64,000 bases of DNA from Sulfurimonas sediminis (GTDB lineage Bacteria; Campylobacterota; Campylobacteria; Campylobacterales; Sulfurimonadaceae). The translations under genes were made by a program, and so were the position numbers. The DNA is taken from positions 682,001 to 746,000 of the forward strand of contig NZ_CP041235.1 in NCBI RefSeq assembly GCF_014905115.1. The letters run 5' to 3'. A model generated the notes under the pieces. That model did no database searches and had not been told where the DNA came from. It saw only the letters and a list, made by a program, of their open reading frames with translations. Below are positions 16,402 through 17,711 of the stretch, piece after piece; the stretch's first letter is position 1; each line of letters starts with the position of its first letter.

Positions 16402-16407
16402 TATAAT
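16402..16407 (+). promoter_or_regulatory. Probable -10 element of nadA, upstream of the inserted element
   Basis: TATAAT in the context TTTTGATATAATTGC, typical of Campylobacterota sigma-70 promoters. It lies 20 nt before the left end of the MITE-like element. Without the element, it would be about 40 nt before the nadA start, a normal leader length. The element therefore seems to have landed between promoter and ribosome-binding site. No transcript evidence is available. Confidence 0.5.
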
Positions 16408-16425
16408 TGCATAATAATAAAATTG

Positions 16426-16695
16426 TAAGTGCCTGACCAGAATAAATGACATAATTTAATGAAGAGAGAAAATGCAAGATACAAGGCGAAAATCCGTAGG
16501 AGCTACTAGTAGCTTCAAGGATTTTCAACGAAGTTAGATTGTATTTTCTCTCTTCACCCGAAGGGCAACATACAAAGGACTCATTTCCTGCGTTGAACTT
16601 TCGTTAACGATACCAGTATCGCCAACAAAAGTTCGCCTTGAAACTAAACCCTTTGTGTGTTGTTAAATATGTCATTTATTCTGGTCAGGCACTTA
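16426..16695. mobile_element. 270-bp MITE-like element with perfect 28-bp terminal inverted repeats
   Basis: The 28-bp arms at 16426-16453 and 16668-16695 are exact reverse complements. The outermost bases are TA on both sides, followed inward by AGTGCCTGACC; this fits a TA target duplication with AGTGCC...GGCACT ends, as made by IS630/Tc1-mariner transposases. Inside are two more hairpins. One has arms 16461-16473 and 16543-16555 around the palindrome AGCTACTAGTAGCT (16501-16514). The other has arms about 16566-16578 and 16650-16662 around CGATACCAGTATCG. No transposase is encoded, so it is non-autonomous. It carries a TTG at 16638 in frame with nadA. Confidence 0.85.
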
Positions 16696-16712
16696 GTAAA
16701 CAGGATGATTTT

Positions 16713-17711
16713 TTGCAGTTAACAAATGATGAATTAAAAAAACGAATTTCCGAGCTCAAAGAAAAACTGAGTGTCACAGTTGTTGCACACTTTTATCAGC
16801 GTGATGAAGTGTTTGAACTTGCTGATATTACAGGCGATTCATTAGAATTGGCTATGAGAACAATGGCAGATGATGCAGAATTTGTACTCTTTTGCGGTGT
16901 CGGATTTATGGGGCAGAGCGTGAAAGTTCTTTCACCACACAAGCGTGTCGTTATGCCAAAAATTGCCTGCTGTGCAATGGCGCGCATGATTGACTCTCTT
17001 TATTATGATGATTCTGTGAAATTTTTAGAAGACAACGGCATTGCCAAAGAAAATATTTTGCCGATCACCTACATCAATTCAAATGCTGAGGTAAAAGCAA
17101 AAGTCGGAGAGATGGGCGGAATGGTCTGTACAAGTTCGAATGCCAAAAAAATCATTACAACAGCATTGGAGGAGGGAAAGAAAATTCTTTTTGTCCCTGA
17201 TCGGTGTCTTGGACAAAATATTGCCAACCAGATGGGACTCAAATCTATGGTGATTGGGCAAGAGGGTGATCCAAAAGAGGCAGACATTATCTGTTATGAC
17301 GGTTTTTGCTCGGTGCATCAGCTTTTTACACTCGATGATATAGCTTTTTACCGTAAAAAATTTCCGGGTATAAAAATTGCAACACATCCCGAATGTGACC
17401 CGGCTGTTTGTGATGCCAGTGATTTTGTAGGTTCAACCTCACAGCTTATCAAATATATAACAGAGCTCCCGGAGGATCAAAAAGTAGCTGTGGGAACAGA
17501 GTTTAATATGGTAAATCGACTGCGACCAAAAAATACCTATGTGTTAAGCTCCACAAAACCGGAATGTCCGACAATGAATGAAACAACCCTTGAAGATGTC
17601 TATCTGACACTCAAAGCGATAGATGAGGGCGAGCCGATAAACGAGATAGAAGTTGATCCAAAAACGCAAAAATGGGCAAAAATCGCATTAGAGCGAATGT
17701 TGGCATTATGA
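16713..17711 (+). CDS. nadA: Quinolinate synthase A
   Basis: A 332-residue [4Fe-4S] enzyme condensing iminoaspartate with dihydroxyacetone phosphate to quinolinate. Motifs include VVAHFYQRDEV near the start, FCGVGFMGQSVKVL, the cluster cysteines in ACCAMA, VCTSSNA and KPECPTM, and HPECDPAVC. I place the start at TTG 16713, which has AGGA 7-11 nt upstream and gives the normal length. The frame is also open back to a TTG at 16638, but those 25 codons come largely from the inserted element. The stop overlaps the nadC ATG (ATGA). No nadB is in the window. Confidence 0.9.
   Translation: MQLTNDELKKRISELKEKLSVTVVAHFYQRDEVFELADITGDSLELAMRTMADDAEFVLFCGVGFMGQSVKVLSPHKRVVMPKIACCAMARMIDSLYYDDSVKFLEDNGIAKENILPITYINSNAEVKAKVGEMGGMVCTSSNAKKIITTALEEGKKILFVPDRCLGQNIANQMGLKSMVIGQEGDPKEADIICYDGFCSVHQLFTLDDIAFYRKKFPGIKIATHPECDPAVCDASDFVGSTSQLIKYITELPEDQKVAVGTEFNMVNRLRPKNTYVLSSTKPECPTMNETTLEDVYLTLKAIDEGEPINEIEVDPKTQKWAKIALERMLAL

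Follow-up and report, generated by a model that had tools for sequence, protein, structure and literature searches.

A TA-targeting MITE in the nadA leader of Sulfurimonas sediminis, and a folded core common to elements with the ends of different transposons

The usual explanation of a bacterial MITE is that it arose by deletion from a single parent transposon and that its interior is devoid of information. An IS630-associated, TA-targeting MITE already described is RUP of Streptococcus pneumoniae, with its partner IS630-Spn1 (PMC2229807). Further TA-ended MITEs are listed in two reviews (PMC2229807, PMC10969869), the older of which notes that, RUP aside, transposons matching the terminal inverted repeats (TIRs) of such repeats had either not turned up or never been sought. 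The element we describe here resembles RUP in its TA target, TIRs in common with IS630, lack of a transposase gene, intergenic position and strong folding, but RUP is 107 bp long whereas our element is ~270 bp and has a conserved four-way core that also occurs behind unrelated ends. The ERIC or IRU repeats of enterobacteria are likewise palindromic with TA at their ends (PMC2229807), but they are ~127 bp long, have other TIRs and form one long hairpin. The Correia or NEMIS repeats of Neisseria are again TA-bounded MITEs with TIRs, differing in TIR sequence and in length (107 or 155 bp). CIR repeats of Caulobacter and Brucella share the plan of a linker between two inverted-repeat arms (PMC2229807), but by their description they stand apart, exposing a GANTC motif and having no outer TIR stem. 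Taken alone, the nadA element is a further case of a known kind; the unusual part is the conserved core with exchangeable ends. In the open-access literature we found no description of an end-swapping core common to several transposase families, nor of such elements in Campylobacterota or Oscillospiraceae.

An element inserted in the nadA leader

The window, a 64,000-nucleotide stretch of the S. sediminis genome, carries a MITE-like element at 16426-16695. A first-pass annotation had proposed a 270-bp element here with perfect 28-bp TIRs, TA flanks on both sides, two internal hairpins and no ORF. The left TIR (16426..16453, plus strand) and the right TIR (16668..16695, minus strand), each counted with its TA, are indeed fully complementary over 28 nt, and 97% complementary over 31 nt. 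The flanking TAs (16426..16427 and 16694..16695) are also as proposed and are the two copies of a duplicated target, so that the span holds good while 266 bp remain for the element itself. As had been claimed, it contains no ORF of at least 80 aa other than the open nadA frame. The 64-kb window holds no further TIR match with up to three mismatches (0 expected), promoter-like matches pointing outward from the element are no commoner than in shuffled sequence, and an Rfam search of the element gave only sub-threshold matches to miRNA models, with nothing in L001.

The element folds strongly both as RNA (-125.7 kcal/mol, z = -15.7 against shuffles) and as DNA (z = -15.0). The two hairpins seen earlier correspond to two long inverted arms, to which the TIR stem and a central mini-hairpin must be added, giving a four-way structure of TIR stem, arm 1, CCCGAAGGG mini-hairpin and arm 2. 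The inner hairpin of arm 1 (16482..16533, plus strand) is framed by CAAGGC and AACGAAG and that of arm 2 (16588..16640, minus strand) by CAAGGC and AACGCAG, both being matched by the arm pattern and by our covariance model; the mini-hairpin CCC-GAA-GGG (16557..16565) appears in the RNA and DNA folds and recurs in other elements. In many of these it reads CCC-GNA-GGG or the complement, and the AACGNAG motif likewise contains C-GNA-G. GNA triloops are stable in single-stranded DNA.

That the element is mobile can be seen from its copies and from empty sites, both of which the first-pass annotation had proposed to look for. The S. sediminis genome (2.32 Mb, one contig) carries five full copies, 83-100% identical, and more are present in other genomes of the genus. 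Two close relatives, G011 and G044 (95% and 91% identical to the window over the nadA segment), have an empty nadA leader. At this site G044 has AAAATTA-TA-GTAAACAGG and the window AAAATTG-TA-[element]-TA-GTAAACAGG; one TA becoming two is the target duplication of an IS630/Tc1-type insertion. The single TA at the empty site also shows that the element was transposed into the leader and is no ancestral part of it. An ancestral regulatory leader or riboswitch of nadA might have been suspected from so strong a structure beside a metabolic gene; since the closest relatives have empty sites, copies are dispersed and Rfam gives no match, that explanation is refuted and we give it practically no probability. 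Single-copy status with the same sequence in all relatives, named at the outset as what would speak against transposition, is excluded by the same copies and empty sites. The element is short, bounded by TIRs, free of a transposase gene and dispersed, with a target duplication and an empty site, and is thus a non-autonomous TA-targeting MITE that was inserted after the split from the closest sampled relatives. Elsewhere in the genome, solo TIR-like ends with no second end nearby, probably remnants, lie at G000:C1:679657, 1596734 and 2066582. Two full copies (L002 and L004, at G000:C1:1385420 and 1381448) are in opposite orientation 3.7 kb apart and are 18-19 bp longer than the window copy; a composite transposon formed by this pair was considered and rejected, the intervening span consisting of ordinary genes.

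The insertion lies, as first reported, between the promoter and the ribosome-binding site of nadA. The -10 box of the native promoter, TATAAT (16402..16407, plus strand), has the form GATATAAT at the corresponding position of nearly all relatives' leaders. The ribosome-binding site, AGGA (16702..16705, plus strand), and the TTG start of nadA (16713..17711, plus strand) are also conserved, the relatives examined having kept both a site of AGGA type and a TTG at this position. The product matches Pfam NadA (E = 1e-92), NadC is encoded downstream, and a glycerol-3-phosphate acyltransferase gene diverges from nadA. With the element, the -10 box is 311 nt from the TTG, as against ~43 nt without it. 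The fold ends at 16695, 18 nt before the start codon, and leaves the AGGA outside. The element does supply an in-frame TTG within arm 2 (16638..16640, plus strand), exactly 25 codons upstream of the nadA start, but the 25-residue extension of NadA suggested from it is unlikely, this TTG having no Shine-Dalgarno sequence and being part of a stable hairpin, and the start at 16713 being conserved in the relatives examined. The nadA mRNA would carry a ~300-nt 5' UTR in which a very stable hairpin would begin ~12 nt after the transcription start and leave the ribosome-binding site free, and a plausible consequence is that the element would alter the stability or processing of the mRNA rather than abolish translation.

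This leader has been hit more than once. In G007 a related element with the TIR TAAGTGTCAAACCC occupies another TA of the nadA leader (L139), and G013 provides the matching empty site, again revealing a TA duplication. G027 shares this insertion, the right-hand TA of which is in turn the site of another element whose TIR is different (L115). The insertion in G007 and G027 is independent of that in the window, and all of these insertions fall between promoter and ribosome-binding site. It would be tempting to see here an adaptive insertion, kept for a folded RNA that tunes nadA-nadC, as independent events in no fewer than two lineages, a second element being nested in one of them, and a ribosome-binding site that stays free would fit. 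Most sequenced relatives, however, have no element there, and a short AT-rich interval between promoter and start is a natural target for TA insertion. We regard adaptation as improbable.

Partner transposons and the exchange of ends

The first-pass annotation had also called for a full-length IS630/Tc1-type transposon with matching ends, and such a transposon exists in congeners. G129 and G130 carry an IS630 transposon of 1065-1068 bp with the ends TAAGTGCCTAACCAAAATTAATGACATA, identical to the ends of the nadA element at 25 and 24 of 28 positions, whereas the best other 28-mer of the window matches this type of end at 18 of 28. Its transposase matches DDE_3 and the NCBIfam IS630 model (145.7 bits, cut-off 100), and a transposase search indicated about ten IS630 copies in G129. 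In the copies read, the gene is split over two frames, a split that is common in IS630. Related IS630 fragments adjoin an end of the G129 type in G018, G033, G038 and G115. The S. sediminis genome itself holds no intact IS630 with the element's exact ends, its own IS630 ends matching at 18 of 28 positions, and because of this the copies here may now be immobile. The match of the element's ends to an IS630-family transposon is one with congeners and not with its own genome; the duplicated TA and ends in common with an autonomous IS630 are those of an IS630/Tc1-type element.

The same interior is found behind the ends of other transposons: elements with this core have ends matching three transposase families, IS630, ISAs1 and IS5. 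The IS630 end resident in the S. sediminis genome, TAAGTACCTATCCAAAAATAAAACCAATTAA, is the end of a second type of MITE (L014), with no mismatch over 28 nt. For ISAs1, a transposon of the S. sediminis genome bounded by ATACCAATCCCCAGTAAAGATA (G000:C1:1480144-1481724; L006, 1344-2924) encodes a transposase scoring 150.9 bits with NCBIfam (cut-off 70), and at its left end stands the folded core, after which a broken TIR is joined to the subterminal IS sequence TAGGTAAATCCC. It looks like an IS whose left end has been taken over by a MITE, the type of event that would swap ends, seen here at one locus. For IS5, an Oscillibacter transposon whose gene is in two halves, both above the NCBIfam cut-off, has the ends AGGGCATGTTTGAAAAATA and AGGTCTTGTTTGAAAAATA, to be compared with MITE ends of TAGGCCATGTTTGAAAAA. 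Most other TIR types had no matching transposon among those found in their own genome, and a search for IS630 partners in genomes with these types was without convincing result. What had seemed an Oscillospiraceae transposon (L302) was set aside, as it consists of an ordinary gene, ruvB-like by eye, with a MITE on either side.

We reason that transposition would occur in trans, by whichever transposase fits the ends, and that the core would persist by exchanging those ends with resident transposons, for example by recombination in common terminal sequence. The ISAs1 chimera would then be a trapped case of the exchange. The explanation as a whole, a TA-targeting MITE in the nadA leader with exchangeable ends and a core that would act as a single strand, is one in which we have high confidence.

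Conservation and strand asymmetry of the core

The core consists of two inverted arms, in each of which CAAGGC and AACGNAG flank a hairpin, with the mini-hairpin between them. It recurs across Campylobacterales in ~270-bp elements with many unrelated TIRs, and matches confined to the arms were found in elements with other TIRs within the S. sediminis genome. Most elements of Campylobacterota measure 262-276 bp and share the four-way layout, their ends including TAAGTACC, ATACCAA, AAGTCCTTAATT, TTACCGCACC, AGGGCGTCTCT, TAGACTTCTTGC and TATTACTCCCCC; our 49 TIR clusters are inflated by offset starts, and we rely on at least a dozen clearly different TIR sequences. Some families have a second arm of a different type. 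In L155, L159, L160, L161 and L164, for instance, one arm is of the CAAGGC type and the other has a recurring motif around GAGAT...GATCGC, and several Campylobacterales families show such a single CAAGGC-type arm.

The paired positions of the arms have been maintained through change, since all 14 pairs have changed on both sides, and 95.7% of arm cells are paired, against 72.5% when shuffled and at most ~50% when slid. CAAGGC and AACG-AG are invariant in 38 arm sequences, an invariance that exists by construction, the arms having been chosen by motif; this applies less to the covariation, for which a loose stem filter was used. According to the covariance model, 22 of 249 Campylobacterota genomes, belonging to 10 genera, contain arms. 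Among 299 Bacillota genomes it matched one, the Oscillibacter used as a centre, so that this search doubles as a control of specificity; that genome has 70 matches to the arm model. A pattern scan of GTDB, with one genome per species, returned 104 stretches, and the matches listed came from Campylobacterales and from Oscillospiraceae and related Clostridia (Oscillibacter, Lawsonibacter, Ruminococcus), where the arm sits in ~160-bp elements of a single hairpin. A Campylobacteraceae MAG carries a 166-bp version (L189) with a 45-bp perfect TIR (TAAGTACCTAACC...), similar in length to the elements of Oscillospiraceae.

Stems can also stay paired through repair of quasi-palindromes at the DNA level. 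G-U and A-C pairs were compared using a filter symmetric for the two. Inner arm helices of Campylobacterota contain 57 G-U and 4 A-C pairs with related sequences counted, and 12 and 0 with one representative per 80% cluster from both phyla, relatedness among the sequences weakening these numbers. TIR stems, by comparison, have 38 G-U and 31 A-C, and for outer arm stems the counts are 83 and 71 among Campylobacterota, as against 45 and 8 among Bacillota; in helix 2, whose centre was chosen automatically, the asymmetry is weaker (109 to 49). A double-stranded palindrome gives no G-U bias, which suggests that the inner helix is selected as a single strand. Each arm would then act single-stranded, as RNA or ssDNA, in the orientation from CAAGGC to AACG, and with the arms oppositely oriented either strand would carry one of them in working orientation.

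It should be considered that the core may have no function at all, deriving from one ancestral MITE whose ends were exchanged by chance, and being inherited and kept palindromic by repair at the DNA level. The common descent of the arms is clear within the S. sediminis genome (44-46 of 52 positions identical), and the outer arm stems of Campylobacterota show no strand bias. Against this stand a loop motif that is fixed while the paired bases around it change, the strong G-U bias of the inner helix and the same loop in Oscillospiraceae and ERIC, and we consider a functionless core unlikely, while giving it appreciable weight. A second possibility is that a single-strand HUH transposase (Y1/RAYT-like) reads the hairpins and moves the elements, the TIRs being incidental. 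Like REPIN/RAYT, the elements have paired inverted hairpins, some arms with a REP-like GTAGGAGC hairpin; the inner helix has its single-strand bias, and the S. sediminis genome has Y1_Tnp genes. Unlike REPIN/RAYT, however, the window element has TIRs that match DDE transposons and a TA duplication, the GTAG head varies (alignment A1), and Y1_Tnp is inconsistently present, not being found in the arm-rich genomes G143, G378 and G380. A REP/RAYT origin was rejected on the unconserved head and the inconsistent Y1_Tnp, and movement by an HUH enzyme is very improbable.

Our preferred reading, that the core acts as a single strand behind exchangeable ends, would gain a wider frame from ERIC. The ERIC and Correia sequences were verified against records. 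ERIC copies of Salmonella (L319), Pantoea (L320) and Rahnella (L341) have an exact CAAGGC ... AACGCAG between outer and inner helix, and several other ERICs combine GAAGGC with either AACGCAC or AACGCAT, which looks like a change of the closing C-G to G-C or G-U. AACGCAG is also the form in arm 2 of the window element, arm 1 having AACGAAG. The CAAGGC/AACGCAG loop as a feature of ERIC is named in this analysis and not in the literature. The arm covariance model does not detect ERIC with significance, and the link thus rests on the test of the motif in context, which gave no match in 127 kb of control sequence from the window and 12 in a second control of 128 kb, which is not clean, being taken from loci that may contain true arms. 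The window element lacks the ERIC consensus sequence and TIRs, giving no blastn match to a plasmid collection that includes ERICs. Nor did it match Correia in the collection, including gonococcal records with at least 40 Correia places; two plasmid-labelled records, NZ_CP119142.1 (gonococcus, 2.17 Mb) and NZ_CP141089.1 (E. coli, 4.94 Mb), are chromosome-sized. A gonococcal Correia copy (L322) has CAAGGC and AACGCCG directly inside the TIR stem, with one mismatch in the loop motif. A common origin of ERIC and the core is a hypothesis, and a relation of Correia to it is only suggested. Tentatively, the CAAGGC/AACGNAG loop could be a transposase-independent module, recognised as a single strand and common to Campylobacterota, Bacillota (Oscillospiraceae) and Pseudomonadota (ERIC, perhaps Correia), whose carriers survive by exchanging ends among IS630, ISAs1 and IS5.

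For nadA, an insertion that splits promoter from ribosome-binding site is a natural experiment on leader length and structure. A conserved interior with exchanged ends reverses the picture of MITEs as deletion products, and leads one to expect that some common factor or activity acts on the folded core. The ERIC link would place a long-used typing marker of unclear origin in a wider, testable class.
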